Source of the DNA: Morinoia aosen
Taxonomy: Eukaryota; Arthropoda; Malacostraca; Amphipoda; Talitridae
DNA: 64,000 nucleotides
Direction of reading: 5' to 3'
Assembly (NCBI GenBank): GCA_030386875.1
Contig: CM059564.1
Location: 69,211,436 to 69,275,435 of the forward strand
Positions 324-60,660 of the stretch are shown piece after piece; within the stretch, counting starts at the first letter, position 1, and the number at the start of each line of letters is the position of its first letter. The position numbers were made by a program, and so were the translations under genes. Under the pieces are notes generated by a model, which was not told the DNA's origin, made no database searches, and saw only the letters and a program-made list of their open reading frames with translations.

Positions 324-6549
<6,226 letters not shown>

Positions 6550-6616
6550 CTGCACAAGCATGAACAGTTGTTAGATGACTCGCCTTAATTTCCTTTAAGT
6601 CACTCATGATTATCAG

Positions 6617-9886: not shown

Positions 9887-12863
9887 CTAGTATTCTGATA
9901 GGAAGTGAGACTCAAGATGTCTTTTGTATACTTTGTACGAATTACTTTCACGGATCTCCGCAGGTATTGAGTTCCAAGTTTTAGTTCCAACGAAGAGGAT
10001 ACTGTGTTGCGACCGGGCCTTTGAATAATAAGGAAGCATGAATTTACTTCTATATCGGGTTAAATGGTCGAGATGACCAGTTTGCGCAGTAAATAATTGT
10101 TTTAGCCTATTGTCGCCATCATTTGGTAATGTTTTGTAAATGAAATTGCAAATGGAGATTTTGTAGATCCGAGAGCTTGAGTATTCGTAAATTTTTGAAT
10201 GAATCATTTGTGTGAGCATTATATTCTAGGTTCTTTACCGCTCTGATAGCTCTTTTCTGCAGAGTAAAAATTTTGTTGGTTTTATTTTTATCAGTTCCGG
10301 GCCAAGCTTCTATTCCGTATTGCAAGTATGGAGAAATGAGCGTTCGGTAGAGCATTTGTAAAGCTGTTTCAGGCAGAAAATTTCTAACTTTATTTAGGAT
10401 TCCGATGGATTTTGATAATTTAGAACTAATATGAGTGATGTGTTCTTTGAAGGTCAGATGTTTTATCTATTATGACGCCCACAAACTTACATGAGTTGGT
10501 TTCTTCGATTTCACCTTCGCCAATTTTAATGCGTGGGAGAGATACATTTTTCTTGTATGAGAATGTAATATAATTTGTTTTATCGATATTAAGGCTTATT
10601 TTATTAGCTTTGAGACACAATGAAACCTTATGAAGTTCATTATTTATACTCTTCGCAATCATAGCGGGATTTTGGTTCGGAAGGACCGCAGAAAGCGTAC
10701 TGTCATCGGCAAAAAGTATGAATTCGATGAATGATGTAGATGTTATAATATTATTGATAAAATCAGAAACATTAGATGCCCAAGAACAGATCCTTGAGGA
10801 ATTCCATGGCTAATTGTCTGTGGGTCAGATTTTGCGTTGTCAATGACAACGTATTGCTTCCGATTTGTTAGGTATGATCTGAACCAATCATGGGCAATCC
10901 CTGGAGTGCAATAACAGTGTAGTTTCTAGAGTAATATTTTATGGTCCACACAATCGAATGCTTTTCGAAAGTCAAGAAATTCAGAGAACACAGGCTTTCC
11001 TTCATCTATATTAGAATAGAGGAATTGTAAATGATTTAATATAACCTGTGTTGTTGATTTTTTGGAGCGAAAGCCGTATTGTTTATCGTAAAGAAATGAA
11101 TTTTTTTCGAAACACGAGTATACTTTTTATACACAATTTTTTCGAATACTTTGCTAATAATTGGTAGTACGGAGATAGGTCGATAATTGTTTACACAGGT
11201 TTTTTCACCATTTTCAAAGATACGGGTTACTCTAGCAACTTTGAGGGAGTTCGGGAAAGTGCCTAGGAAGAGAGACTGGTTAAAAAGATTGGATATCAGC
11301 GGGGCTACAATATCAGCAATAATTTCAAGTACTTTTGTCGGAAACATTTGTAACCCACTCTATTTATATTTCAGGTTGTTTATGCACGCAATTACATCAG
11401 ATGAGTTGGTAGGCGTAAAGAAAAAGGAGTTGTGTTCTCGAATATGATCCATGTATTCCAGGTGATCAGCAGGTTCACTTGGAATACCATCAGCTATAGT
11501 TTTCCCTACGTTTACGAAGAAATTGTTGAAGAGATTAGCAATTTCTTTCTTCTCATGGTATTTTACATTATCTTGAACATGTTTAATTTTCTTTTTATCG
11601 GCGTTATTCGGTTTACAGCGAGAGTTAAGGAGGCGCCAAGTCTTTTTAACGTCAGCTTTCAATTGAGTAAACTCGCGCGTGAAGTAGTTCTTTTTTGATG
11701 TCCTCATCTGATTTGTCACAGTTTCTGAATCGGTTATATGTTTCTCTAGATATTCGCCCTTCACAAAGGAGGGCTAGGAACGCTTGACGTTTCTTTATGT
11801 TTGTCACGATGTCTCCAGTAGTCCAGGGCTTTTGTTTATTTTTCGGGGTTACGAGTTAGAGTTAGAATTGGGCAACATTGATTGTATGCGGCCATTATAG
11901 TTTCAGTCAACTTTACTACTGCTTCATCAATGCTCGTTGCATTATTGTATTGAGAGACGTGCAATATTGGTATTGATTCGTCTAGAACGGTGCGCATTTC
12001 CTCTAAATTTGATTCGTTTACTTTACGACATGAGTACGTTTCAGCCCGTGGCTTGGTGCAAGCAATATAAACATTTTTCTTAAAAAGAAAAATTGGAAAA
12101 CGATCTGATAAGTCAGAGGTAATGATTCCAGAAAGAAAATCACTTGGGTCTGTCATAAAGATATTGTCTAGTAGCGTAGTAGATTCAGAGGTTATTCGTG
12201 TAGGCTTTGTGATGATCGGAAGGAATGATTGAGACTGAAAGGTTGTTAGGAAATTAGAGATTGGTTCATAGCTTTCATGTTTCAGTAGATCATAATTGAA
12301 GTCACCGCATATTATTATGTCATTGTTTAAGGGCCTATTGAACTGAGAAATAATACGATTTAGCTCATTCAGGAAGGATATAGGACAGGCTGTAGGAGGC
12401 CTATACACAGTTCCAAGCACAATACGTTTACCATCTCTAGACAGTTCTACGAAGAGTGATTCTATATGATCCTGATTCATTATTGCACTTGCTATGGTTC
12501 TCGAGTCTATGTGGTTAGATATACATGTGCTGATGCCTCCGCCTCGCTGGCTTTTAATCGTAGCGAATGGTAACTATGATAATTTTCAAATCGAATCATG
12601 TCTTTGGTCGAGTCATCTAGCCAGCTTTCGGTGAAGCTAATCACATCTAGGTTATATTGAAGTTCAGTAATAGTAAATTGTATCTTTTCCGACCTACAGT
12701 TCCTACACAGGAGTGAGAAATCACGGCGAGTTATTCGTATAGTTTCGTTAAAATTTGATTATATTAGTATACCTACACTCTTGAGAATCGTTTAGGTTTG
12801 GATTCTGTTCAAATGATTGTGATCTGGGTCGATTTCCTCGAATATATCAGCGTGATCAGTCAT
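9887..12863 (-). pseudogene. Decayed non-LTR retrotransposon ORF2 (endonuclease + reverse transcriptase)
   Basis: Read on the minus strand in several frames, this is a LINE ORF2 of the CR1/Jockey-like group. From the N-terminus: a diverged start near 12863, then an EEP endonuclease (IICGDFNYDLL, TTLLDNIFM and SDLSDRFP, where functional enzymes have SDH). The RT region follows (YRPISVLPIISKVFEKIVYK, FLDFRKAFDCVDHKILL near 10950-10985, HGIPQGSVLG, FFADDSTLSA near 10701-10720). The tail is LISPYLQYGIEAWPGT with WNSIPAEIRESNSYKVYKRH. Both RT aspartate motifs survive. Several frameshifts and stops break the ORF, so it is dead. It lies antisense to nothing recognised and in the same orientation as the malic enzyme gene. 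Confidence 0.9.
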
Positions 12864-41082: not shown

Positions 41083-41623
41083 GGAGATGCAACTAATTGA
41101 TTTTCGAAATTTTGTTGCCTTTATCATGGTAATTATATCGAAATGAGCAAATTTTCTTCTATGCACTTTTTGGGGCAAATGAGTATTTAACGGGTTATGG
41201 TGGTATGTTAATTTTCATCGTTGATGACCGCAACGCGCTCGAATAAACAGCTACTAATCGATTTTCGAATTTTTGTTGCTTTAATCATCGTAATAATATC
41301 AAAATGAACAACTTTTCTTCCATGCAATTTTTGGAGGGAAATGAGCATTTAACGAGTTATAGCGGTATGTTAATTTTCACCTCAGATGGCTGGAATGCGC
41401 TCGATCGTTTGAGCGCGTCGGAAGGGAGAGTCCATTGTAGTTTTCCCCTCAGGACAATTATTTCTTCCTGCTTCAAACTCTTGAGTTACGATAAGTAAAT
41501 TACCGTTATAACTCGTTAAATAGTCATGTGCCCCAAAAAGTACATAGATGAAAAGTTGTTTATTTCGATGTAATTACCATGATACAGGCCACAAAATTTC
41601 AAAAATTGATTAGCTGCATCGCC
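41083..41623. mobile_element. Fold-back element with TTAA flanks, ~541 bp
   Basis: The left end GGAGATGCAACTAATTGATT and the right end (ATTGATTAGCTGCATCGCC) are inverted, with TTAA at 41079-41082 and 41624-41627. The inverted similarity continues through TTACCATGATA and TTTTTGGGGC segments for more than 100 bp per arm. No ORF of note. Confidence 0.55.
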
Positions 41624-41895
41624 TTAACGTTAACCCAAAATTTAGTCTAAGCCTTGTGAAAATAGGATCAAATGGGTAACGGTCAAATTAAAGCAGTCAC
41701 GAACAAAGCCTTTTAAACGAAAGCATTAAAAGCAAAGGCTTCAATAGGAACAACTTCACGTCGTCTCCAGTCCCTGCACACATGAATAATTCCCAGAATA
41801 ACCTAATAATTTGTCAACAGCGTGGATCTGGGTGATGTAATTCATCAACACTCGCCATCTAAGCCACTCGGATCATTGAAAACGATTTAACTTGG

Positions 41896-44095
41896 GTAAA
41901 TCTGAAGGATATGTCAGTTATCGATTTTCCACTTTTTGGTGCCTGAACCTAATTAATTGAATCAAAATAAACAAGTTTTCTTCTATGCGCTTTCGGTCTC
42001 AGATGAGTATTTTACGATTTATAGCGGTAGATTTAGTTTCGTCTCTGATGACGAATGCGCTCGAATAAACAGCTACTCATCGATTTTTGAATTTTTGTTG
42101 CTTGAATCATGGTAATAACATCGAAATAAACAACTTTTCTTCTGTACACTTTTTTCGTCAAATGAGTATTCAACGAGGTATAGCGGTAGGTTTGGTTTCG
42201 TCTTTGATGATGATCGCGCTGGAAGCGCGTGCGCTTTGCAGTGTTGCTGTCCGATGTGCTCCTTGAATTACTTGCCGCTTCAAACACTGGAGTTGCGGTA
42301 AGTCATTTACCACTATAACTAATAAAATACTCATTTGAGACGGAAAGTGCATAGAAGAAAACTTGTTTATTTCGACCTAATTAACTATGCTAAGGCATCG
42401 AAATTTACAAAATCGACAACTGTCATCTCCTTCAGATTTACCAACAAAAATTCGAAAATCGATGAGTAGCTGTTAATTCGGTAAATGTATAGTGTTTGAC
42501 CATAATGGATTTTCCACTTTTTGATCAACAAACATTGTTGATGAGACGAAAATAAACAAGTTTTCTTCAATGCAATATCCGTCGGAAATGAGTATTTTAG
42601 AAGTTAGAGCGAGAAATGAGTTACCGTAACTCCAGTATTTGAGGCGGGGAAAAATATGCCGCGCGGTCCGACGTGAAAGTAAACAGGCGTTCCCGCGCGC
42701 CAACCAAGCCGACGAAGAGAAGCAAACCCCCTATTACAAACGTAAAGAGGTTAGGTCGTGAGGGGTAGCAACAGTTCTTTTAGTGAAAATTATAAAACTA
42801 AAAGAACTGTTGCCACCCCTCACGACCCAACCTCTTAACGTTTGTAATAGGGTGTTCCGATAACTCATTTAACGCCATAACTTTTAAAATACTCATTTCC
42901 GACGGAAAGTGCATTGAAGAAAACTTGTTTATTTATGTCTCATCAACCATTTTTCTTGATCAAAAAGTGGAAAATCGATTATGGTCAAACACTATACATT
43001 TACCGTTAATTCGAGCGCATTCGTCATCATAGACGAAACTAAACTTTCCGCTATAAATCGTAAAATACTCATTTGAGACGGAAAGTGCATAGAAGAAAAC
43101 TTGTTTATTTTGATTCAATTAATTAGATTCAGGCATCATAAAGTGGAAAATCGATAACTGACATATCCTTCAGATTTACCTTTTCTTCTATGCACTTTCC
43201 GTCTCAAATGAGTATTTTACGATTTATAGCGGTAAGTTTAGTTTTGTCTTTGATGACGAATGCGCTGGAATTAACAGCTACTCATCGATTTTCAAATTTT
43301 TAGTGCTTGAATCATGGTAGTAACATCGAAATAAACAACTTTTCTTCTATACACTTTTTTCGTCAAATGAGTATTTAACGAGGTATAGCGGTAGGTTTGG
43401 TTTCGTGTTTAATGACAATCGCGCTGGAAGCGAGTGAGCAGTGCAGTGTTGCTGTCCGACGTACTCCTTGAATTACTTGCCGCTTCAAACACTGGAGTTG
43501 CGGTAAGTCATTTACCACAATAACTATAAAAGGTCAATATTTACTTAAGGTCAGGCAGGCGACCATTATGGGCGCCGCCATCTTGGATCCGATGTAAACA
43601 AGATTGCGGTCGTCACCCTAATGGGTGGGTTAGAAGCTTTATTTATAATTTTCGCTATAAGAACTGTGGCTAACCCTCACGACCCAACCTCTTTACGTTT
43701 GTAATAGGGGGTTAACTACCCTTATTAACTAAATAACGGCTCAGGCGCGCGCGCGCCGGCGCCAACTTCAAAGTACAATTATTCAAAAATAACGCATCAG
43801 CGAGCAGAATGTCATTCGTGTAAAAGGTTATTAAATGTGTTCCTTTATTGATTATTTGCCCCCAAATTATTAATTTCCTTGCCTGACAAAAAATAAATAT
43901 TGTCCCTATAAAATACTCATTTGAGACGGAAAGTGCGTAGAAGAAAACTTGTTTATTTCGATCTAATTAACTATGCTTAGGCATCGAAATTTACAAAATC
44001 GATAACTGACATATCCTTCAGATTTACCTTAATTAGGTTCCGGCACCAAAAAGTGGAAAATCGATAACTGGCATATCCTTCAGATTTACCAAAGT
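41896..44095. mobile_element. Nested cluster of related fold-back elements
   Basis: Recurrent blocks appear in both orientations: GGTAAATCTGAAGGATATGT (and its inverse ending CAGATTTACC), TCGATTTTCCACTTTTTGGT, ATAAACAAGTTTTCTTCTAT, GAGTATTTTACGATTTATAG and GCTTCAAACACTGGAGTTGC. They form at least three overlapping inverted pairs (roughly 41896-42442, 43014-43190 and 43190-44095), one split by the insertion at 42480-43004. No transposase is seen. Confidence 0.6.
42480..43004. mobile_element. Fold-back MITE, GGTAAATG ends, 8-bp TSD GTTAATTC
   Basis: A 525-bp element begins GGTAAATGTATAGTGTTTGA and ends with the inverse. It is bounded by perfect direct repeats GTTAATTC at 42472-42479 and 43005-43012. 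Long inverted arms (about 150 bp) enclose a second near-perfect hairpin at about 42729-42855 with arms over 50 bp (CACGACCCAACCTCTT...). It is inserted inside an older related element, whose broken halves flank it. Confidence 0.85.
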
Positions 44096-44615: not shown

Positions 44616-45050
44616 TTGAAATTCGCTGTCAGTTCAGACAGAAGAGATGCATTCAACCGATCAAGAACGAGACGCGTTGCTGCTCTCCTCCAACTGCGAG
44701 GTACAGATGGTGTGTCGTGTGTGGAGTGTGGACGAAGACCGGCTGACTGGTGCAAACTGGTGCTGGTGGAGGGGTTGAGGAGGGTGGTGATAGGAAGGGA
44801 GGAACTGCCTGATGTGAATATAAAGAGAAGTGGAGGTGAAAATGAAGGTGATATCTCTGGCGGTGCCGGCCCAAAACAGCAGGGTGAAGTATCAAGTTGT
44901 ATCGGTGTGGGAGAGATGAGACTCTTTCGTGTGCAACTCTTGCAACGCTTTCACTCAACTTCTTACCAGGTTTGTATTTCACGTGCTTTACCTCTTATTA
45001 TAATCCAGCGGGTAGCTAAAGAAACACCAAAAATGCTATATGTATTATAA
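44616..45050 (+). other. Unrecognised 144-codon ORF in a GC-richer patch
   Basis: An open frame starting at ATG is Arg/Gly-rich and has an overlapping 109-codon frame on the other strand, so GC bias may explain both. I see no domain, signal peptide or splice context that would make it a gene. Confidence 0.12.
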
Positions 45051-48000
45051 AGTTTATTTTGTCCACACAACCGATCAAAATACGTAATTTTTCAGTATTT
45101 ATTGCGCTAGAAACAAGTAGTTCATAATTCTGGTAATTCTACTTCTCACACTACATAATACGATATATTTATTTGAAAAAACATTACATCAGTCATAATT
45201 TACCGCCGGGTAACTGTGGAGAAGATGAGCGACCAACTGAGCGACATGCAACTGGTCCACAAGCTTTTGCTCAGTTGAACCAGGACAGCTGTCCGGGCTA
45301 GAGAAAAGAAATCACTAAACACGCATGTTTGCTTTAAAACACTCGAATGAGCTTCATAGATGGGTATCCATCCCGATAGTACTTTGCTGTCTGCAAGAGA
45401 CATAAGAGACATGAATAAAATCGAACCGACGCTGGGTAATTTCTCACTCAAATCGCACGCAGATCGTTTGTGCATTGGAGGGAGGAATACATAGAGCAGC
45501 TAGTAGCAAGAAAACAGGGAACTCATTCATGCTTTCATTGAATGCCAGAGTACACCCTACTTGTGTGACACCCGCACTTCTGATTACAGTATATTTTATG
45601 ATTCATTTTCTTCAGACGCTCAATAATTTTCAATTAAATGTTGTTTTGGCACGGTGATGTTAGTTATAAGGCGATACACTAGTTATTTTTAGTAGCTGTA
45701 GTTCAGTGTTTTCATTATTGGCGGCTTCAATTTCTAATAATCGAAATAATAATAAACTACTCAGTAGTTCAACAGAATACCTGTATCAAGCTCTACAAAA
45801 GATTTTATATTCGTTCATTCGTCTATGGTATTGTTTCTAGTTACTCAAATAAGCTTCGTGCATTTGCGTTTTCATATCTTACGCTTATACGCATTTTACT
45901 ATGTTTGAATCATATCGTGCTATTGTCAGCACACAATTGCTAAAGTTCGCTTTTTGTTTTCAGCTAGCACTCGTTAAGTGGCTCGTTCAATTCGAAAGTT
46001 TATTTTCGTGTGTTCTGTTTGTGAAAGCATAAAACATTAGCCACTCAAACTATGCATAACTATACGTTTTAACACCACTCACCAAAATTTGAATTGTGCA
46101 TAAAACAGACATAAAAACAATATATGTATTTCTAATATTGAGTCTTTGGATATCTATTCTTATGCTTCATCTTTTCGCTGTCATCAATCTTATCTTCGGC
46201 AATTTTAATGAATGAAAATGTGAAGAAGTTTCGGATAATTTAACGTTCCACTCTCAGAGTATATTTCTTATACATCAGCTATCCTAGCAGTATTATTAAC
46301 CAAATTCATTGACTAATGAGTTTTTACGTAATGGAAACAGCAGCAAAATATGTGGTGGCTTGATTATAAGTTTGTAGGACAACGTGACTAGTTGGGTTGT
46401 ATTTTACACACCCGCCTGTATATCGCATTTGCCAACGATTGCGAGGCTACGATGGAGAACTGCATCTGACCAGTGCACGTCCTACAATACCTCGAAAAGA
46501 ACCAAAATCACCACCTTGTGAAAGATGTGTTCTCTTCAAAACAATTAAGCATCTTTGCAATCCGCTACGATCCTAGAGAAGATTATTCAAGCCACGAATT
46601 TATAATATGAAAGGAAGAACGCAGCCCTGCGTTTGCTCATCCAATATACGTCGGCATCAGTTGAATTGCTCCTACGCTTTACCTCACATCCCCATCACTT
46701 CCAACCAGCAACCTTAAGGAAGTTCCACGTCACCTGCAGCTGGTTACCACTTCGCTTCGAAGAATGTATTTCTATGTGTTTGAAATTTTAACTACGTAGA
46801 ATTTAATCCATTTCATAGAGGTTAGATGTTGGTTTTGGTTTTTCAATGATTTATTATAATTGCGGGTATTTATCCCACTTAAAATTTAGTAGCTCTCGCG
46901 ACGTGTTTGTTCTGTCAATCATAGAGGGCTTAGCTTTGACGGTCACTGAGGGCCAAGTGCATGATTGAGCCAGAGGCTAGTTTGACGCAAACACACACGC
47001 TGCTGTACCGTCATATGATCATGGCAACCAGGCGATAAATCAGTTATATTTTCTAGATGTATTAAACAGTTAAAAAATACCAATTTCTCCTGGGCTATGT
47101 TTGGCAAGTTTCAGTTAAAAATACGATCAGCCTCTCTGTACTCACATCACCGATGGTGAAGTGGACTCGTAAGATAAGTCCTCATTATTACCATCGTGCA
47201 CGTCAACTTTCTCTCTCAACAGCTTTGTGAAGCAGAGTTGTCTGCGTTCATCTGTTCCAATGGGGAAATAAGTGCTCTCTCATGTTTCAATATTCTTTGT
47301 CAGTTAGGAAGAGTGACAGTGAGGAATGGAAAAGAAGAGGAAATATCCTGGATATGATACTGGAATTTCACACACAACTGATTGCATTAAAAATATGGCT
47401 TTATTTGTGTCTTCAAAACTCTAACCAAAAATGATCACTTGATCACAACAACCGAAATGAATCCTTCAATTATATCATTTACTACATGAATTATATAATT
47501 TTACTGATATAATTAGTCTCATTGGAGACTGGTGGCGCCATTCACTGAATATCTCATTGAAATTATTTCCTAAAGGACGTAATTTTGGCCGTGGAAAACA
47601 TGAACTGAAGCTGCACCAGTGGCATCAAATAATTTAGAAAATAGGGGCTCTCACAACTGATTGCGCAGCAGTAGAATCAAAAAATCAGCCTAAATAGGAA
47701 ATTATTGCAGTTTATTTATTTATTTCTTTTACAGCGATATTTTTACTTCTATGAATCAAATTCAATATATCTTTAATTTCCTTCACACTGTAATAAGAGT
47801 CAGTATTTTGCCCAATAGTTTACATTGTGTTTTTTGAAGTTATTTCACTTATTATTTTGGACAATCGTTCACAATGTATTTTTGAGATTATTTTCCAGTC
47901 TGTACGAGATCCCACATCTCTTTACGTCATTTGTGAAATGAGTGAATTGTTCAAAGGAACAGCTCTTTCTGAAAATCCTGATTTGGTTTATAACACATTT

Positions 48001-49380
48001 TCTGAATCTTCGATTCATTTCGAAAGGAATTTTTCCCCTTGGTATGAAAGGAAATGTCTGTGCATGTCCCTTCTCTATGTTGGAGATTTCCCCTTATTTT
48101 TGTATTTTTGTTACACACTCCCTTCAACTTTACTTAGTTAAAGCCCTGAAGATAATGGAGAAAATTTTGGATTGCGATTCTACATTCGAGTTCTTAAGTT
48201 ATTCAAAATTCAAAATGTTGGAAGGACACGCTGAAGATTAGAAAATAACACAAAAACCATAGAAGTTCAACATTCTGATTTTGAAATTTGTTTAAATTCT
48301 ACGATCATCTTTGACTAATCAGTTAAACATAGAATGCGAAACAATTTCTGCAGTTGATTTTGCCTTATTTTGTTGCATGTGAAAGTGTGCGTATTTAGCC
48401 AAGAGACATATGAGGCATTGGGCAAGCACGAGCAGTTCAGAAGCTCTGAGGATGAACAAGATATTGCACAAGAGGTGCGGTCGATTTTGTGGCTATAGAG
48501 GCACAAGAAGCTCCAATGGCGGTAACTAGACCGCGTCACGACGTTCAGCCCCTTTCACTCAGAGGGCGCAGTGCAATAACTGCATTCCATACTCATCAAA
48601 TGATTGGCAAGCAACTATGAGAAACTCATGCTTGAAAAGAACAGTTAATAGTGGCACTTGATATTCTGCGAAAAATTAACTCGTTTGAACGTCTCTTTCA
48701 TTTTTTCAGACCAAAGTTTTTAGTTATAAAATTGCTTGAAAACCATTTGCGTTATAGTTTTAAAATGAAAATATATTAAATTGGCTTAATTTACTTTTCA
48801 TCGTAAGCTAGATTGAAATTGTCGCACTAATCTATATTTCAATCGAACGAGTTAATGATCCAATTCTCATAAAAAAATTTCCGACGTTGATTTTGATTGT
48901 TCCATTTGCTATTCCTCAGTGACCTCGTCCAAAAAGTCTCCAATAAATATAGCTAGAGTAAACTAAGCGACACGTTTAGTGTAGTAGCGTTGCTAGATGC
49001 GAGTTGCGACTGTGGAGTGGAGTGTCATCGGAGGTATATATAGACAACCTGACCGTCATACACCTTTTCTGATCAGGAAATCGTAGCATGCAATCAGACA
49101 CCTTGCCTCCCAAGCTGCATGCCTTATGCGTTATCATGGATGTGTTATGAAAGGTTCGAGTAATTTGGTATGTGTGCGCTTATTGATGCACAAATTATAC
49201 TGGTGTCTTGAGCCAGAATAGTACCACATTTCCCATCAGTAGTGCATGTAGAGCAACATTGAGTATTTACATCCAAATATCTCTCACGAGTCTAGCACCA
49301 ATTACCAAATAGCGTAGGTAAACCTCAGAGTTTAGCGGATAGTTTCAGCGCAGGATAGGATATATAGCGGATAGTTTCTT
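45051..49380. other. No gene recognised
   Basis: A long AT-rich stretch. The overlapping frames at 47827-48241 and the minus-strand frame at 45200-45475 have no family resemblance I can name. A TATATATAG at about 49035 could be a TATA box, but no ORF follows. Confidence 0.3.
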
Positions 49381-49449
49381 CAGAAGAAGAAACAGGCAAT
49401 GAGTTCTAAAGACAGGATAACTGCCAGCCTTAACTTAAATGCGTACCTG

Positions 49450-49632
49450 GCTTTTTTGTTACGCTTCCGCTTGAAACAGGCGACAGCTGAGGTGTTTCCC
49501 ATTCCACTTGAGCAGAACTTCAGATGCTTCCTTGATTCCAGGAGCACCTGGAACAGCAGCTTGAGGAGTCAGACCACGTGACACAGCAGAGCGCTAGCAC
49601 CTCGAGGGTCAGCTCCATTGGCAACTTGGTCC
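49450..49632 (-). pseudogene. Possible exon or pseudo-exon, Ala/Pro/Gly-containing
   Basis: On the minus strand a good acceptor (ctttttacag, 49633 upward) precedes GACCAAGTTGCCAATGGAGC, and CCAG|GTACGC could be the donor. One frame starts DQVANGADPRGASALLCHVV and stops. After a shift another reads TPQAAVPGAPGIKEASEVLL and stops. The split suggests a broken exon, or chance in a GC-richer patch. The family is unknown. Confidence 0.15.
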
Positions 49633-50075
49633 TGTAAAAAGTACCAGAGGCTTCAAATTTTGTCAATAAATATCTAGCAATGCAATCAATGAATCAAATA
49701 TCGTAGATATAAGAGAACATGCGTGCTGTTTGTAGTAACTGCAAACGATTCCCTACACTGTTTTGACCTTTTTATACAGGTTTGACGTCACCCTCTCTCT
49801 AACCTTCGTTTTTCACTGGTTTGGAAAGTCTTTTCACTTTTCTGTAGTTCTGTAGATACCTACACAGAACAGAGTGAAAGCAAGGTTAATATTTATTAGC
49901 ACTAATTCCGGGAACTGTGCATGGAGATCGATGCTGAACTTGCAGTGCAGTGACCTATAATTGCACGGCGACCGTCGCACAAGAGCCCCATAATTTATGC
50001 TTTCCGAAATGTTTTCTATGAACAGGCGTGCGTCATTGAAACAAAACTCGCCCAATTTAATCGTATTTTATTATC

Positions 50076-51203
50076 AGGGTGTTCCACGAAAAAAGAAACC
50101 CAAAACGAGAATAATATATTTCAATAACTATTTGCTGCATTTTTATCGTTTCGATATTATTCTTCTTTGAACACCTTCCAACAAATGCTATACATTCTGA
50201 TGGAATAAGTGTGTTCAAAAACATTTACCCCGTTAATTACTTTACTGATGGCTATCAAAAACGTGATTGCGCAGGAGATTCAAACAATAAAATGTACGCA
50301 CCGCAATTTAACTTTATTTAAAGTTTTAGAAAAGAGGTCTTTACAACTACGAACTATGTAGTAAATCGTTTTATCAAAAATGCAAGTGTGAGTGGCCCGT
50401 CAAAAATGACGGGATTCAATATTTTCCTGAAGTAAAGCTTCCAGGTAGGGATGAAAAACAAGTATATTGATTCTAATAATACTCGCGATTAAAATATTCT
50501 CGCACTTGTGCGCTGGTCATGAAGACTTGCACCACAGATACGGTCATTAAGTATCCTTAAGAGCGTGACAGAGAGGCGGACCAACTAAGCTATAACTAAA
50601 TATTATTATTTATTATTAACCAATAAGTTTTTGGGAGAAATTGCTATGTTTATTTTCTTATGATAAGTTGCATTTTCTTGAACAATAGACTCAATTTTCA
50701 CTGCAGCAATGTTCAACTTTCATTTCTGCAATATTTTGCAAGGACTGATAGCTGTAAGAACGCGGCTGAGAGAAGTTTTTAATAACCGCATAGTTGTACT
50801 GAAGGAGTATATTGAGTGGCCTCTAAGATCCCCAGATCTAACACCGTGTAATTATTTTCTATTTGTACTTAAAGACGAATGTTCTAGTGTTCCTCAAAAC
50901 ACTATCACAGACACAAGCCAAGGTTCAGTGAACAGATGATATTACTAATTTTTCAAAAGTTAAACTAAAGTGAAATTGTGGTGTGTAAATTTTATTATTT
51001 GACTCTGCTACTCAAACGTGTTTCTGACAGCCTGCAGTTGAGTAATTAACGCTCAATATTTTTGAAGATATTATATTAAAAAGTATAGCATTTGTTCACA
51101 AGTGTTCAACAAAGAATACTGTGGAAACTGAATCGAAATGTAATAAGTAGTTCTCGAATTAAATTATTTTCATTTCGGGTTATGTTTTTTTGTGGAACAC
51201 CCT
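50076..51203 (+). mobile_element. TIR DNA transposon remnant (GGGTGTTCC ends), ~1.13 kb
   Basis: The left end AGGGTGTTCCACGAAAAAAG matches the inverse of the right end (TTTTTTTGTGGAACACCCT), with similarity reaching about 40 bp. Direct repeats TTATTATC at 50068-50075 and 51204-51211 flank it (up to 10 bp if the end is taken at GGG). Inside, 50709-50939 encodes a transposase fragment. The element is deleted relative to a complete transposon. Confidence 0.8.
50709..50939 (+). pseudogene. DDE transposase C-terminal fragment
   Basis: The peptide NRIVVLKEYIEWPLRSPDLT continues PCNYFLFVLKDECSSVPQNT. W-P-RSPDLTP-D-FLW is the signature near the third catalytic acid of IS630/Tc1-mariner-related transposases. 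Here that acid position reads Asn (CNYF), so the copy is inactive. Upstream catalytic segments are missing. Confidence 0.7.
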
Positions 51204-51211
51204 TTATTATC

Positions 51212-53585
51212 ACTCTGGCATAGGTAATCATAATGATGCGTATATGTTTACAGTAAGGAAGAAAGAGAGCAAAAAATGAAATCAACACCACAATTGTGAG
51301 AGTAACCATTATCTAGTCAGAAGCTACTATACTTCAATTTTTGACCACTGTCCACCATTTTTACATACCTCCTTAAAAACTGCCACTCACACTTCTGAAA
51401 GTTAATATTTTACCCTTCTCAATTCCACAGAAATACTGCGAGGGAATTTTAAGTAAACTTGAGCTGAGAGGCATGCAGTGTGTGTCAGAGCTCGGCACGA
51501 ACCACCTGCAAGCTGCACGTCCACCTGTCGATTGCAGGAACAGCAGCTGTTGCAGCACCAGTCACGCTCGGCGACCGCCCTCTCACTCTCGGTCACGGCC
51601 CATGATCACCTAGGCAACCAACTACCTCGTCAGATGCACCTTTCCTTGCAAATGCCGAGCATATTTTAGGTCACCCTTTTCCCTTAGGCCGCGCGAACTA
51701 CCACCCTATCAAAAAACTGCTTATTATCGTACACTTCCAGTCATGAACTGTTCCTTCCCTAATTTAATTCTGTTTTTTAAATGCCTGCAAGATTGGTTAT
51801 CTTTAAATGCTGGGCTCTGTAATTAAACTTGAAAGAAAAGTGGAAAATCAGGATACACCAATGAGTGTTTCAATGCGGGAACTCAGATGCGAATCAGTCT
51901 TTGATGTCACCGCTAGCAGGATACTGAAATGCAGTTGAAGAGGAGGCGGCCATCAACCTATCACAAATCCTTATATGCTGGCAACATTTTTCAGAAATTC
52001 ATCAAAAACAGAGTGTGTTATTTTGTACTTTTTAGACGGATATTAACACACAGAAATAAATAGTCCGTATATAAATGAATGCGTATATTAGAACGTCCTG
52101 CATCAAATATCAAATATAATTCATGAGAAAGAACGTTGTTTATTGGCTTACATAACTTAACTAGAAAATGAGTATAAAGTAAGCAAGAGGGATTTGAATG
52201 ATTCTTGTTTTATTTATTAACATACTTGCGCACAGTGTGCGTCTGAGTACCTAGGTTCTACCACAAGAGCTTTGCGTGTTTGTATGTATAGCCAAACACG
52301 CCGGTAAGATTTTTCGTACTGATCTACCTCTCGTAAGTACTTCTCAGTCATCCATCAGCTCTCATACTGAAAACTTAGATCTTCCGGTAAAATCAATGAC
52401 TCCGATGTTTCAGCCTCTGTTTCTGATCCTGTTGATTTTTTATTTATGAAGGCTCTGGAATTTATAAAGGCTCATTTCATAATATATGTATATATATATT
52501 ATAATTCAAATTAACACTACCAAAAAATGGAAATAGCCCTTGACACTATATTGAGTCTACTTTATCACACTTATAGGGCTGGCATATTTTGCATAACATT
52601 GAATTCAATACTGAGAAGGCTTACGCATTTATGTTTAACTCCACCGGCTATATTTCACAATATTATTAGCTAGAAATTGAAGACTACGGACGGCTACCAG
52701 TATGCAATTCACATAGCTATAGTTTCTTGGGCTTCAGGGGATAAAAACGAGTGCAACTGAGCGCGGGCGACGTCAATTTTCGCCTGAAAGCGTGTGCTCT
52801 CGGTGGTTGTCATGGTAAGGTGGTGGTTGAATTCCTCGAAGTAGGTTCTGTGGTCATGGTTTTGATTTCACATCTAAGATAAACGAAGAGTATTTAGTTA
52901 GTATGAGACACAAAAAAGTGCAATTAGTAATAATATTACATTTGCCGGTACTGTTCATATTAGTATCAGTGTTCGTGGTTGATAGTGTGAGAGAATGTTA
53001 TTCGTTTCATAGATATTTTAATTTCCTTAGGAGGTGGTAGAGGTAGATTTTTAGTTTCCATATCGCGATCGCTTCTGATTGAAAGGCACCCCAAAGCATA
53101 AGCACTTCATATAGTAATTATTCCTCATGATGACATAAATACTGAAGTAACCGAAAGTATCATCGGACGGTGTAATTTTGAAGTTTCATAAGGGTGTTGG
53201 AAATAAACTGTTTTCGCCGTTTTCAGGATGATCGAAGTAGGTTCATTCATCAATGGGTAACTTTTCCATACCAATTTTCCATACAAATAACACAAAACTT
53301 GTAGGCATTTTTTTGAGCATATTACGGAACTCTAAAATTTTATGTTATATGTTTCCAGTAATTTACAGTTCGTGATTCTCAAACGTTGAGCGTTGAAATT
53401 GATCACTGCGCATATGTTTGTTTATTGTCTCAGACGAGCGTTTCATAAAATATTTTTCGTAAATTATGTTAATTAACTCTTTTCCCCTACATAAAAATTA
53501 TCAATAACGGTATTAATTGAGTGAAAAATTTCAAAATAAGTCATGCATTAAGCACGGTCACTTTCGTATAATCAAATCACTCTAC
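51212..53585. other. No gene recognised
   Basis: A GC-richer patch at 51440-51700 has overlapping frames on both strands without a known domain. The rest is AT-rich. Confidence 0.3.
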
Positions 53586-53596
53586 ATTAAAACTTA

Positions 53597-53645
53597 TCTC
53601 AATTGTTAAAATAAAGGACGTCTTGGTAGTGAAGTTTCCATTTTT
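53597..53645 (-). repeat. PLE terminal direct repeat, 3' copy
   Basis: A 49-bp sequence containing AAGGACGTCTTGGTAGTGAA is repeated at 56187-56235. On the element's strand it follows the hammerhead-like motif and ends at the insertion boundary. Confidence 0.85.
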
Positions 53646-53684
53646 TCAAAATTTTGGGATCAGCAAAGACAAATTTAATTTTTT

Positions 53685-53731
53685 GACCCAAGCTTTCGGC
53701 TAGATTAGCTCTAGCCGTCATCAGGGGAACG
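53685..53731 (-). ncRNA. Hammerhead-ribozyme-like motif, left copy
   Basis: This is the exact mirror of the right-arm motif, lying 3' of the full-length ORF between its TGA and the terminal repeat. It has the same CUGAUGA, 7-bp stem and GAAA arrangement. Confidence 0.65.
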
Positions 53732-53825
53732 ATGTATTTTTAAACAAAACCTCTTATGGTATCTGCGGGTATCTAGTATACAAAACATTTTTTTAAATTT
53801 TTACATGCAAGCCGAAAATCATTGA

Positions 53826-56231
53826 TCAAGGGCGACTGATGAGCATAGGAAGAAACTGCGGGGGGACATCAAGATGACGATTAATTTTGTTAGGTTCCTA
53901 AACACTGTACATTGCTTCGACAATTTTTCGAGCGTATTAATTTTTAACATTTTATAATATACATACATTTTCAAAATCAAAAGAATGGTTATCTTCTTCG
54001 GAATGCTAATAGACAAGGGATAACCTATTCTTCCTCTGCACATTCTTCGCATGCTCATCAATTCGTTGTTAAAGATTTCTACCCGTTTCCCCAATGTAAC
54101 ATGCTTCACAATTTTTACATTATAATTTATATATAAGATTACTTTTTTCAGAATTCTATCGTTTATCTTTAAGTCTGATTAGGCTGTTTTTTATCGTATT
54201 CGAAGATTTGAAAGCCAATTTAACATTGAATGGTTTTAAGATTCGCTGGACTCTTTCAGAACAACCTTTAATATACGGGACGCTTATATATTTCAGGGGG
54301 CGTTAGGAATTTTCGTTGCTTTATCGAAGTATGGGGAGGTTTTGATTATTTCCACCAATCATTAGTCGGTTGCTATTACGTAGTTACGGAGGAAAATTAT
54401 TCTATTTCAATAATTAATCCACTGTTGAAAGTTCTTACTTCAAATTTTGCTCACTACAAATATTAACTGCTCTCTGATAAAGGGATTTCGCTACACTCCT
54501 CCTCTGTGATAAGGGATGATAACTGAAATAGTCTAAGTACCTGCCTGTGTTTGTTGGTTTCCGGTAGACCCGGAATTATAATCTATTATTGCTTAACCGA
54601 TTAATTAATATATCTAAGTACGGGATGCATCCATTACTTTCTAATTCCATAGTAAATTATATGTTGGCGTTGAACCCATTGATATGCTGGAGGAATGTAT
54701 CAGGCATATCTTCTGGTAGTGCAGTCAATATATCGTCAACGTAACGTTTCCAAAACAGTGGCTGGCACGGGGGTGTTGATAGGAATTAATCCTCCATTGC
54801 TTGCATTGTTATCTCGGCCAACGCGACAGAGATAGGGGAACCCATCGGTGTTCCTTCTACTTGTTGATAAATTTTGTGATTCCATTAAAAATGATTAGAT
54901 TCCAGGCATAGGTTGAGGAGCCGCAAAATAGCTTCAGTTGAAATCGGAGTTACTTGAAGAGGTGAGTTGAAGTTCTGCAATTTTTCGGCGACACATTAAT
55001 GAGCAAAATTTTGAGGTATACAAGTGAACAAACTCTTCACATCATAAGAAACTAGGATATAATTGTCCGGAACGTTGATTTCTTGCAAAAATTACTTGAC
55101 TTGAAAGCTATTTTTTAGTTTTTGCGATGCCTCGTTTGTAATTGGGGTTAGGATTCCCGATAAAAATTTGGCAACTTAATAAGTTGGTGAATCAATAAAA
55201 GATACGATAGGACGAATCGGGTAGTTTTCCTTGTGTGTTTTGATTAGCGCGTAGAAGAGGGGGGTCACGCACTTGTTTACGTACAAGGCTTTACGCTATT
55301 AGTCGGTGAGTTCATTTTCATCTTTCAACTATTTTATTAGCTTGTTCACTTTCTTTACTGCTAAATAGGTTTTATTTTCGTTCATTATCCTATAGGTACT
55401 ACTATTCGCTAAGTGATCAGCTATTTTTTATTCATAATCTCGTCGGTCAATAACTACCAGCGAGTTCCCTTTATCTGCAGGTGCGATGACGATTGAGTCA
55501 TCCTCTCTTAATTCTTTAATGGCAACTTTTTCTTTTCTAGATATATTCGTGACCCGCTAGCTACTTTGTAATGCAGTTATTACTCGGGAGCGAAGAACGG
55601 CTTTTTCTTCCTCTGGAACGGTTAGTTATCTAATTACAGTTTCCGTGTTGCCAAGGAAGTCAATTTTATCTTTCTTAGAATGAGGGAGCGCAAAGTTTTT
55701 CCCTTTCATCAAAAGTTTTTTCTAATCTTCGGTTAGATGTTTGCTTGACAAGTTTTTTACGGAATTCATTTAAAAGGTAGGGTTTTGCTATTGAGATAGT
55801 TGATCATACTTTTCTTTAAGACGTTATTTTTCAAATTGTTACTTTCTTTGCAGTTTTAGCGTTGCTGCTTACTAGAGACTGTTTAATAATTCAATAGTAA
55901 TTTTTCCTTGTAGTTCTAACTCAATGCATTCAATTCTTTTCCGATTGTAATTGATTCTTCTGTGGTCATCGTTGATCATGAACGTTAAGCATTTTCTAGC
56001 GACGGTCTATCGAAAATATTCTACGGCTTCAGCAGATCGAATTGGGGGTCGAATCCTTAGCGACTTGGGAATGATGTCATTTTTCTTGCATCTTAAGTTG
56101 AAGCGGAGCTATTCCCTTGCAATTCCTAGGCGTTCGTGACACTCGCAAAATTCACAGGAGGCTTTGTACACATCTTATCCTTTTTGTCTCAATTGTTAAA
56201 ATAAAGGACGTCTTGGTAGTGAAGTTTCCAT
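53826..56231 (-). CDS. Penelope-like RT/GIY-YIG polyprotein, complete only if TAA/TAG = Gln
   Basis: ATG at 56231-56229 opens 801 codons to TGA at 53828-53826 (2406 bp, exactly divisible by three). By hand count 37 codons are TAA or TAG and none is TGA before the end; about 28 Gln are CAA/CAG. Domains in order: PLE N-terminal region (NLRCKKNDIIPKSLRIRPPI, about residues 48-70), Gln/Lys-rich coiled coil (about 120-160), LLMKGKNFALPHSKK (about 175-190), RT with LIKTHKENYPIRPIVSF, motif A SYDVKSLF (Asp at 397), GTPMGSPIS and RYVDDIL (YVDD 497-500), YRKPTNTGRYLDYFSYHP, then GIY-YIG with YKL(stop)CKNCEACYIGETGR (YIG at 712) and a late VEAM glutamate. Length and order match canonical PLEs. Under the standard code it is untranslatable; alternatives are dense nonsense decay or readthrough. 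Confidence 0.88.
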
Positions 56232-56235
56232 TTTT
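56187..56235 (-). repeat. PLE terminal direct repeat, 5' copy carrying the start codon
   Basis: Same 49 bp as at 53597-53645. On the element's strand it contains ATGGAAACTTC, the inferred initiator of the 801-codon frame, so the terminal repeat doubles as the ORF start. Confidence 0.8.
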
Positions 56236-58066
56236 CCTTGGCAACACGGAAACTGTAATTAGATAACTAACCGTTCCAGAGGAAGAAAAAGCCGTTCTTC
56301 GCTCCCGAGTAATAACTGCATTACAAAGTAGCTAGCGGGTCACGAATATATCTAGAAAAGAAAAAGTTGCCATTAAAGAATTAAGAGAGGATGACTCAAT
56401 CGTCATCGCACCTGCAGATAAAGGGAACTCGCTGGTAGTTATTGACCGACGAGATTATGAATAAAAAATAGCTGATCACTTAGCGAATAGTAGTACCTAT
56501 AGGATAATGAACGAAAATAAAACCTATTTAGCAGTAAAGAAAGTGAACAAGCTAATAAAATAGTTGAAAGATGAAAATGAACTCACCGACTAATAGCGTA
56601 AAGCCTTGTACGTAAACAAGTGCGTGACCCCCCTCTTCTACGCGCTAATCAAAACACACAAGGAAAACTACCCGATTCGTTCTATCGTATCTTTTATTGA
56701 TTCACCAACTTATTAAGTTGCCAAATTTTTATCGGGAATCCTAACCCCAATTACAAACGAGGCATCGCAAAAACTAAAAAATAGCTTTCAAGTCAAGTAA
56801 TTTTTGCAAGAAATCAACGTTCCGGACAATTATATCCTAGTTTCTTATGATGTGAAGAGTTTGTTCACTTGTATACCTCAAAATTTTGCTCATTAATGTG
56901 TCGCCGAAAAATTGCAGAACTTCAACTCACCTCTTCAAGTAACTCCGATTTCAACTGAAGCTATTTTGCGGCTCCTCAACCTATGCCTGGAATCTAATCA
57001 TTTTTAATGGAATCACAAAATTTATCAACAAGTAGAAGGAACACCGATGGGTTCCCCTATCTCTGTCGCGTTGGCCGAGATAACAATGCAAGCAATGGAG
57101 GATTAATTCCTATCAACACCCCCGTGCCAGCCACTGTTTTGGAAACGTTACGTTGACGATATATTGACTGCACTACCAGAAGATATGCCTGATACATTCC
57201 TCCAGCATATCAATGGGTTCAACGCCAACATATAATTTACTATGGAATTAGAAAGTAATGGATGCATCCCGTACTTAGATATATTAATTAATCGGTTAAG
57301 CAATAATAGATTATAATTCCGGGTCTACCGGAAACCAACAAACACAGGCAGGTACTTAGACTATTTCAGTTATCATCCCTTATCACAGAGGAGGAGTGTA
57401 GCGAAATCCCTTTATCAGAGAGCAGTTAATATTTGTAGTGAGCAAAATTTGAAGTAAGAACTTTCAACAGTGGATTAATTATTGAAATAGAATAATTTTC
57501 CTCCGTAACTACGTAATAGCAACCGACTAATGATTGGTGGAAATAATCAAAACCTCCCCATACTTCGATAAAGCAACGAAAATTCCTAACGCCCCCTGAA
57601 ATATATAAGCGTCCCGTATATTAAAGGTTGTTCTGAAAGAGTCCAGCGAATCTTAAAACCATTCAATGTTAAATTGGCTTTCAAATCTTCGAATACGATA
57701 AAAAACAGCCTAATCAGACTTAAAGATAAACGATAGAATTCTGAAAAAAGTAATCTTATATATAAATTATAATGTAAAAATTGTGAAGCATGTTACATTG
57801 GGGAAACGGGTAGAAATCTTTAACAACGAATTGATGAGCATGCGAAGAATGTGCAGAGGAAGAATAGGTTATCCCTTGTCTATTAGCATTCCGAAGAAGA
57901 TAACCATTCTTTTGATTTTGAAAATGTATGTATATTATAAAATGTTAAAAATTAATACGCTCGAAAAATTGTCGAAGCAATGTACAGTGTTTAGGAACCT
58001 AACAAAATTAATCGTCATCTTGATGTCCCCCCGCAGTTTCTTCCTATGCTCATCAGTCGCCCTTGA
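56234..58066 (+). pseudogene. 5'-truncated inverted copy of the same PLE ORF
   Basis: The reading begins at the codon for residue 192 (FLGNTETVIR) and continues in one frame to TGA at 58064-58066. It carries the same 26 TAA/TAG codons as that part of the left copy. The one base difference found is at 56681 (left partner 55211), changing the conserved RPIVS to RSIVS. The missing first 191 residues and start codon make it non-coding. The 96-codon ATG frame at 57783-58073 is an off-frame shadow of the nuclease domain. Confidence 0.9.
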
Positions 58067-58160
58067 TCAATGATTTTCGGCTTGCATGTAAAAATTTAAA
58101 AAAATGTTTTGTATACTAGATACCCGCAGATACCATAAGAGGTTTTGTTTAAAAATACAT

Positions 58161-58207
58161 CGTTCCCCTGATGACGGCTAGAGCTAATCTAGCCGAAAGC
58201 TTGGGTC
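58161..58207 (+). ncRNA. Hammerhead-ribozyme-like motif, right copy
   Basis: It has the CTGATGA box (58168-58174), a 7-bp stem (CGGCTAG with CTAGCCG around AGCTAAT), a GAAA box (58195-58198), then GCTTGGG. Stem I could be CCC/GGG. Stem III would need the self-complementary AGCT, as in dimer-active hammerheads of PLEs. Cleavage is not demonstrated. Confidence 0.65.
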
Positions 58208-58633
58208 AAAAAATTAAATTTGTCTTTGCTGATCCCAAAATTTTGAAAAAATGGAAATTAAAACTTATGTTTCATAAGTTCAATCTTTTATTTTAACTCG
58301 ACATTCTCATTAACTATATTGGCCATTAGTGAATAGGAAAGCACCATAATTTACTATAAATATAAGCATAAAATATCTTTAACTAAGAATTATATAAACA
58401 CGTGAATTAATTTTAAATGCCTTGAAATTTAGGAAACAAAATAACTAAAATTTTGTACTTTTTCGTTTGTCAGTGAAAAGATTTAGGTTTTTCGTGTTTG
58501 TTCATTACTCAGAACAGACGAAGAGGGTAGGCTACATTTTCACCGTTTTGCTCAAAGTTAATTTCAGCTTTTTTCAAAGATATTCGCACATTAAGGGCAT
58601 TTTAACTTGAGAATTTTGATAGCCAAATTTTTT

Positions 58634-59168
58634 GGTAAATGTATAGTGTTTGACCATAATCGATTTTCCACTTTTGGACCAAGAAACATTGTAGATGAGA
58701 CGAAAATAAACAAGTTTTCTTCTATGCAATTTCCTTCGGAAATGAGTATTTTAGGAGTGAGAACGGGAAATGAGTTACCGTAACTCCAGTATTTGAGGCG
58801 GGGAAAAATACACCGCGCGGTCCGACGTGAAAGTAAACAGGCGTTCCCGCGCGCCAACCAAGCCGACGAAGAGCAAACCCCCTATTACAAACGTAAAGAG
58901 GTCGGGTCGTGAGGGGTTGCAACAGTTCTTTTAGTGAAAATTATAAAACTAAATGAACTGTGGCTACCCCTCACGACCCAACCTCTTTACGTTTGTAATA
59001 GGGTCATGCACTATCGAGTTCCGGTAACTCATTTAACGCCATAACTTTTAAAATACTCATTTCCGAAGGAAAGTGCATTGAAGAAAACTTGTTCATTTTG
59101 GTCTCATTAACCATCTTTCTTGATCAAAAAGTGGAAAATCGATTATGGTCAAACACTATACATTTACC
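58634..59168. mobile_element. Fold-back MITE, GGTAAATG ends, 8-bp TSD AATTTTTT
   Basis: Second copy of the 42480-43004 family: it begins GGTAAATGTATAGTGTTTGA and ends with the inverse, flanked by AATTTTTT at 58626-58633 and 59169-59176. It has the same nested inner hairpin (about 58878-59007, CACGACCCAACCTCTTTACG). The two copies are very similar along their length. Confidence 0.85.
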
Positions 59169-59176
59169 AATTTTTT

Positions 59177-59939: not shown

Positions 59940-60660
59940 AAGAGGAAAGAAAGAAGAAAAACCGTTTATTTATAAAAAATGATACATGAGATGTATAACA
60001 CACTGGATTTTAAATTTTTTTAATATAAAGGACCATAATTGATAGACAAACCATACGAGGGGTACTATAGCCGTATCGGGGGCTAATTATGTTATTGAGA
60101 GAAACAGTCAAAATATCATCACTTGAATATTTTAAACACAGAGAAATGGCTGACGACTTACAATTAATTTAAATATTATTAGAAAATTCTTTGAAATTCC
60201 TTAATTATTAGTTGAAACGTAATAAGAGAAGTCAAAAAATGATTTACCGAAACAGACTGAAACATTATCGTAAATGATTATCAAGTAATGACAAAACGTT
60301 AGTCATAAAAGTAATTTATTGAAAACATAGCGCAACATGCACGCACATCTAGAAACATGTAAACATGTATAAAAATGAAATACATGGAAAATGAAATTCA
60401 TAGCTTGTTCATCGAACGGACAAAAAGATAATTTAGCCACTAATCATGTGTTTAAATTGCGCTTTATTTCATGTTTGTTCCTCTTGCGTAGTGATGCATC
60501 TATTTTTTAAACAGTTGGCAAGTGCAATAAGTTCGTTAACTGGACTATCGAGTTATTTTTGAAAAATGGTTCAGTATTGACTGGTCGCAGAGGATTAAAT
60601 GAAATGTGATGGACATTGAAGTTTTGTTTTTACGTAAAAAAAGACATTTCGTAATTATTT
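59940..60660. repeat. Unclassified interspersed repeat, copy C
   Basis: Same family as 13260-14330: GTTTATTTATAAAAAATGAT, GATAGACAAACCATACGAGG, ATTATTAGTTGAAACG, ACATTATCGTAAATGAT and GGTTCAGTATTGACTGGTCG in the same order and orientation, ending near a TTTTTACGTAAAAA tract. It has roughly one minisatellite unit where copy A has seven. Confidence 0.55.

Follow-up and report, generated by a model that had tools for sequence, protein, structure and literature searches.

Introduction

The closest described systems to the locus reported here are the Poseidon elements of Anolis (PMC11167929) and the Penelope families of Adineta vaga (PMC3846280). The Anolis element cuts its target at ATT in AT-rich DNA, and its reverse transcription begins at two internal sites that lie side by side close to the start of the ORF, with a tail of 30-40 bp between them and the main start of reverse transcription 111-118 bp into the ORF (PMC11167929). 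For A. vaga, the second account describes inverted pLTRs, a 9-bp target-site duplication (TSD) and a pLTR that extends into the ORF by 12 codons, or by 22 when a 31-bp tail is present (PMC3846280). The element analysed in the present study resembles both systems in its coding capacity, that is, a single ORF with an N-terminal helical region, a telomerase-like reverse transcriptase (RT) and a C-terminal GIY-YIG endonuclease. It also resembles them in its insertion, with a pLTR that extends into the start of the ORF, a tail of 30-40 bp, an inverted partial copy and a short TSD starting with ATT (PMC11167929, PMC3846280). Unlike the main start described for Anolis, however, the two ends of the tail here lie near +7 and +44 of the ORF (PMC11167929). 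Unlike either system, our element has a frame that is open only when UAA and UAG are read as glutamine, a host with the standard code and an imperfect, hammerhead-like motif.

Codes in which UAA and UAG (UAR) specify glutamine and UGA is a stop (NCBI code 6) are used by many ciliates, and one report describes glutamine as raised proteome-wide in such ciliates (PMC10942620). The element is like the nuclear genes of UAR=Gln lineages in that TAA and TAG (TAR) mean glutamine, TGA is the stop and glutamine is raised, but it sits in an animal chromosome and the surrounding genome does not use that code. Altered genetic codes have been considered an obstacle to gene flow. PLEs have reportedly been transferred from arthropods to conifers, with the standard code in both donor and recipient; the present case is similar in that a PLE appears to have moved between distant eukaryotes, whereas here the codes differ. 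The parts are thus already known, namely PLEs, UAR=Gln codes and the horizontal transfer of retroelements. Among the matches listed in a search of the open-access literature, no title or abstract beginning mentioned a PLE with an altered code or a transfer across codes, and a complete element in one code freshly inserted in a genome of another code appears to be a new combination. In our judgement, a canonical PLE that had long evolved under a nuclear code with UAA and UAG as glutamine and UGA as stop was probably inserted recently into this amphipod chromosome by PLE-type retrotransposition.

Results and Discussion

A single frame that is open with TAA and TAG as glutamine

The window, by which we mean the whole stretch of 64,000 nucleotides of Morinoia aosen DNA that was analysed, contains a complete canonical Penelope-like element (PLE) with a telomerase-like RT and a GIY-YIG endonuclease (Table 1). 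Its ORF is a single frame that runs from ATG to a terminal TGA. The original prediction had described an 801-codon frame that is intact only when TAA and TAG are read as glutamine, and translation confirmed this. The hand count of 37 in-frame TAA and TAG codons proved exact (25 TAA and 12 TAG), no TGA occurred before the C-terminal end, and ordinary glutamine codons were also used (28 CAA or CAG, together CAR). No other code-6 ORF in the window was as long (831 aa counting an upstream extension); next in length came the PLE's own inverted copy (649 aa) and then an unrelated ORF of 409 aa. When 5000 random sequences were drawn from a first-order model of the same composition, in-frame TGA codons per 801 codons had a mean of 16.0 and a minimum of 5, against the 0 observed internally, and a chance open frame was therefore rejected.

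The frame was also predicted to be free of frameshifts, and none was found, relatives aligning across up to 99% of its length. In the same alignment, the ATG at 56231 lay at about the position at which the relatives' proteins start, and the terminal TGA fell where they end. The repeated 37 bp near the start of the ORF had raised the idea that flanking host DNA supplied the ATG; this was abandoned, since the N terminus could be aligned with relatives and the 37 bp fit a PLE tail. Both predicted domains were recovered, through PF01541 above its cut-off, the alignment and the telomerase fold matches. A structure model of the code-6 protein had a mean pLDDT of 86.8 over 801 residues, and its best fold matches in the PDB were telomerases; among the matches listed, the rows of one fold search mostly covered residues 160-629. 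No GIY-YIG entry was among the 50 matches listed in either fold search of the PDB, and a search of the PDB by sequence with the PLE protein gave no match. Membership in the PLEs was indicated by the telomerase-like RT, the C-terminal GIY-YIG domain and the place of the protein among PLE proteins in the tree, and equally by the pLTR, the 37-bp tail, the inverted copy and the short TSD.

Table 1. Positions of the element, its parts and the neighbouring host features in the window.
Feature	Position	Strand	Basis or remark
Malic enzyme gene in eight or more exon pieces, the first exons lying on the right	324..6551	-	Protein matches; standard code
Left TSD, ATTAAAACTTAT	53586..53597	.	Same 12-mer at 58257..58268, read from the flanks
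37-bp PLE tail beyond the element's 3' end, repeating about codons 3-15 of the ORF	53598..53634	-	52-bp match of 53594-53645 to 56184-56235; fits the tails in PMC11167929 and PMC3846280
3' UTR / pLTR part of the main copy	53635..53825	-	Repeat comparison
Hammerhead-like motif: CTGATGA, stem II, GAAA, one extra C before stem II	53694..53724	-	Pattern search
PLE ORF, 801 codons, TAA/TAG = Gln, TGA stop	53826..56231	-	Translation and masked-column likelihood test
GIY-YIG endonuclease domain, residues 699-737	54021..54137	-	PF01541 above cut-off
Telomerase-like RT region, residues about 159-629, D397, YVDD 497-500	54345..55757	-	Domain search, alignment, fold search
Tail sequence at its first site, inside the ORF (about codons 3-15)	56188..56224	-	Same 52-bp match
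Inverted 5'-truncated copy, residue 192 to the 3' end, 26 TAR	56234..58257	+	1 mismatch in 2024
Hammerhead-like motif of the inverted copy	58168..58198	+	Pattern search
Right TSD, ATTAAAACTTAT	58257..58268	.	Its first A could equally belong to the element end, giving 11 or 12 bp
Host repeat, 362 bp beyond the right TSD	58631..59168	.	91.7% over 541 bp to 42477-43004

Meaning of the TAA and TAG codons

The meaning of each codon was assessed by a likelihood test in which TAR and CAR positions were masked and each residue was scored at every codon's columns. The relatives were the best 120 of 535 database matches, from 8000 scored candidates, and 63 of these 120, thinned below 80% identity, were used in the test. 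The best meaning was glutamine for both TAA (33.0 bits; next lysine, 14.7) and TAG (12.0 bits; next lysine, 7.5). With the two codons pooled, glutamine scored 45.0 bits, lysine 22.2 and glutamate 6.9, and tyrosine was outside the six best-scoring residues. The CAR columns gave 43.5 bits for glutamine in the same test. Five or more usable sites were available for 59 codons, and all but one of these, TAA and TAG included, were assigned the residue that they have in code 6. The observed glutamine score was not reached by any of 10,000 random draws of 37 other columns, nor by any of 10,000 draws restricted to polar columns; glutamine was the top residue in 160 of the former and 29 of the latter. 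These results agreed with the predicted glutamine meaning of TAR. Lysine, glutamate or another residue was rejected as the meaning of UAR, lysine lying 22.8 bits and glutamate 38.1 bits below glutamine.

In the raw counts over the 120 relatives, glutamine was the commonest residue at the TAR columns (13.8% of 3864 cells), followed by aspartate (12.2%), arginine (10.3%) and lysine (10.2%). The original prediction had named alignment of TAR to many different residues as an outcome that would speak against it. Many residues do occur there in the raw counts, but the CAR columns behave alike, with glutamine in 16.3% of 2768 cells (19.5% in the best 22 relatives), and no other residue explains the set. 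Since glutamine fills so small a share of the cells at TAR and CAR columns alike, these are variable glutamine sites and not mainly ancestral CAR codons turned into TAR; such variability is as expected at the 31-50% identity of the relatives to the PLE protein. The glutamine content of the protein was 8.1%, compared with a mean of 4.4% in the 120 relatives (SD 0.75, maximum 5.9%). Judged from codon usage and composition, the high glutamine content and the meaning of TAR suggest a long evolution of the element under a UAR=Gln code.

That this frame arose by decay of an ordinary PLE, whether through random mutation or through C-to-T hypermutation at CAR codons, is scarcely credible. Although each TAR codon is a single C-to-T step from CAR, random decay was expected to yield TGA as well, an expectation in the original prediction that the numbers upheld: under random change, the probability of no TGA among 37 new stops was 6e-5 to 1.8e-4 (kappa 1, 2 or 4). 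If only C-to-T changes were allowed, it was 1.5e-4, given 12 unchanged CGA codons. Glutamine stands in only about 14% of the relatives' TAR cells, so there is no need to suppose an earlier CAR at most of these sites, and the glutamine content exceeds the maximum among the relatives. Both forms of decay were rejected.

Anatomy of the insertion

The inserted unit spans 53598..58257, with ATTAAAACTTAT on each side. The main copy and the inverted copy, of which the original prediction made no mention, meet, by our reading, in a two-base overlap. Given its close anatomical match to the described systems, the insertion is read as a product of PLE-type retrotransposition. The two arms differ at 1 of 2024 positions, and with such near-identical arms the insertion is a young retrotransposition product; when the arms are read as one event, the single difference is read as little elapsed time or one RT error. 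The PLE tail on the insertion implies that a PLE protein acted on this chromosome.

Amphipods carry ciliate epibionts, and an assembly artefact that joined protist DNA from the microbiota into the amphipod scaffold would account for a foreign code, but we hold this to be very improbable. Besides the epibionts, it would fit the left flank, where no repeat within 45000-53596 recurred elsewhere in the window, so that on this side host origin rests on the TSD. Composition cannot decide, as the flanks and the element have a similar 4-mer make-up (0.94-0.95 when compared with the first 45 kb). Against such a join, a TSD of 11-12 bp stands at both ends, of which a chance join would make none, and a host repeat lies 362 bp past the right end. 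Farther out on that side, parts of 60110-60644 match 13.6-14.7 kb of the window at 75-78%.

The surrounding host chromosome

The original prediction placed the element in an arthropod genome, and the surroundings are indeed those of a standard-code amphipod, as judged from the malic enzyme gene at the left of the window. Seven joined pieces of it were 95% identical to the protein of Hyalella azteca, other crustaceans coming after, and piece by piece the identity to Hyalella was about 81-100%, a range that points to an amphipod probably distinct from the sequenced H. azteca, unless the gene is a paralogue. Eight exon pieces held 19 CAR, 0 TAR and 0 TGA in 452 codons, and the chance of finding 0 TAR at the element's TAR rate was 1e-7. 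A host with a changed code was rejected on these counts of CAR and TAR. The malic enzyme gene of the host is also useful as a species marker.

Relatives and candidate donors

We built a 30-row tree from the query and 29 hand-chosen relatives with TAR masked, and a quick 61-row tree from the query and 60 of the 120 relatives, thinned at 70%. In the 30-row tree, the query paired with P0021 (98/94) inside a clade of 26 rows (100/100), and Hyalomma (tick), Spirometra (tapeworm), Mugilogobius (fish record) and P0024 lay outside that clade. The quick tree recovered the same 26-row clade with an SH-aLRT of 100. Among the best 120 of the 535 matches, P0021 was also the closest relative, with 50% identity; it is a protein of 460 aa on a 430-kb contig, with 49 members, and has glutamine at 7 of 20 TAR columns and 4 of 18 CAR columns. 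The upstream part of P0021 is absent from the gene call, perhaps because it is broken by stops.

The PLE protein and the family alignment were each searched against two contig collections. They gave 2 and 31 pattern stretches, respectively, in the viral collection and 15 and 26 in the collection from prokaryotic genomes, with no relative in either. A TAR-free piece of 48 aa found no candidate relative in the protein database. A close UAR=Gln relative or donor was therefore not found in the viral and prokaryotic contigs or in the best 120 of the 535 protein matches, a negative of limited reach, as these contigs come from viruses and prokaryotes and proteins of this kind would be broken up by ordinary gene calling. 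The relatives found have frames that are open under the standard code, presumably for the same reason, in that gene calling of the ordinary kind would break any UAR=Gln members.

The candidate donor is likely a ciliate. Tetrahymena and Paramecium have a strong AGA bias for arginine, unlike the element, in which 30 of the 54 arginine codons are CGN and 24 are AGR, and this counts against such a donor. Diplomonads and oxymonads also have UAR=Gln codes. Other candidate donor lineages are some ulvophycean algae with UAR=Gln (PMC2984419) and Amoebophrya ex Karlodinium, in which UAR is probably glutamine and UGA is also read (PMC12005148); in the element, TGA is used as a stop only.

Origin and route of the element

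The original prediction held that the element originated under a reassigned code and was transferred into an arthropod. The meaning of TAR, the raised glutamine and the standard-code host support this, while the transfer itself we infer, the search for a donor in the viral and prokaryotic contigs and the best 120 protein matches having been negative. The observations are best read as a horizontal transfer between lineages with different genetic codes. In the simplest account, an RNP or cDNA made with the protein of that PLE family would have come from a UAR=Gln organism associated with the animal, whether on its surface, inside it or alongside it, and would have been inserted by target-primed reverse transcription. 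When the element is translated in the code of the host, the frame ends after 11 codons, with a stop at codon 12, so its protein would not be made in the host by ordinary decoding. The copy was probably dead on arrival in the amphipod.

As alternatives to RNP delivery, suppression of stop codons in the germ line, or mobilisation of the RNA in trans by another PLE, would let the PLE family live and multiply in the amphipod lineage itself. We consider this unlikely. The near-identical arms, together with the marks of PLE retrotransposition, would fit it, in that a PLE protein was recently active on this genome, as would the absence of visible decay of the frame. However, 37 readthroughs per protein would be implausible with ordinary suppression, and a tRNA scan of the 64-kb window found 0 genes. 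No match above 50% identity occurred among the best 120 of 535, so no near standard-code helper was seen. It is similarly doubtful that a UAR-coded family is now propagating in the standard-code germ line, whether through germ cells that read UAA and UAG as glutamine, through repeated delivery of RNPs by a symbiont or parasite, or with help in trans from a PLE.

If the transfer across codes is true, it would be direct evidence that nucleic acid or an RNP crosses a code boundary even though the protein cannot be remade on the other side. The direction of transfer would then be readable from the codons alone, and the locus would be a test case for how retroelement RNPs get to the animal germ line.

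Hammerhead-like motif and neighbouring repeats

The 3' region of each arm carries a hammerhead-like motif. The bare hammerhead core had 5 matches in the window against 1.9 expected, and 4 of 100 shuffles reached 5, which is not beyond chance. When a perfect stem II was required in addition, with the extra C allowed after the fact, only the two copies matched, and none did in 60 first-order random 64-kb strands. Rfam at E<=10 gave 4 matches on 53590-53900, all far below the cut-offs and none of them a hammerhead, and 0 matches at the gathering threshold over the whole 64-kb window. The RNA fold of the 3' UTR had a z of -1.2.

Several other repeats were observed in the window. The stretches 41092..44092 and 58631..59172 have a common family of inverted and tandem repeats, 73-95% identical by piece. 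A decayed LINE lies at 10119..12573 (minus strand), with an Exo_endo_phos_2 endonuclease in 11836-12573 and RT-like pieces further left; it is CR1/jockey-like by eye, and Pfam gave no RT in 11036-11359. At 50076..51203, two inverted arms that are 75% identical surround a central piece without a Pfam match, which, by its motif, we take to be similar to a mariner transposase.
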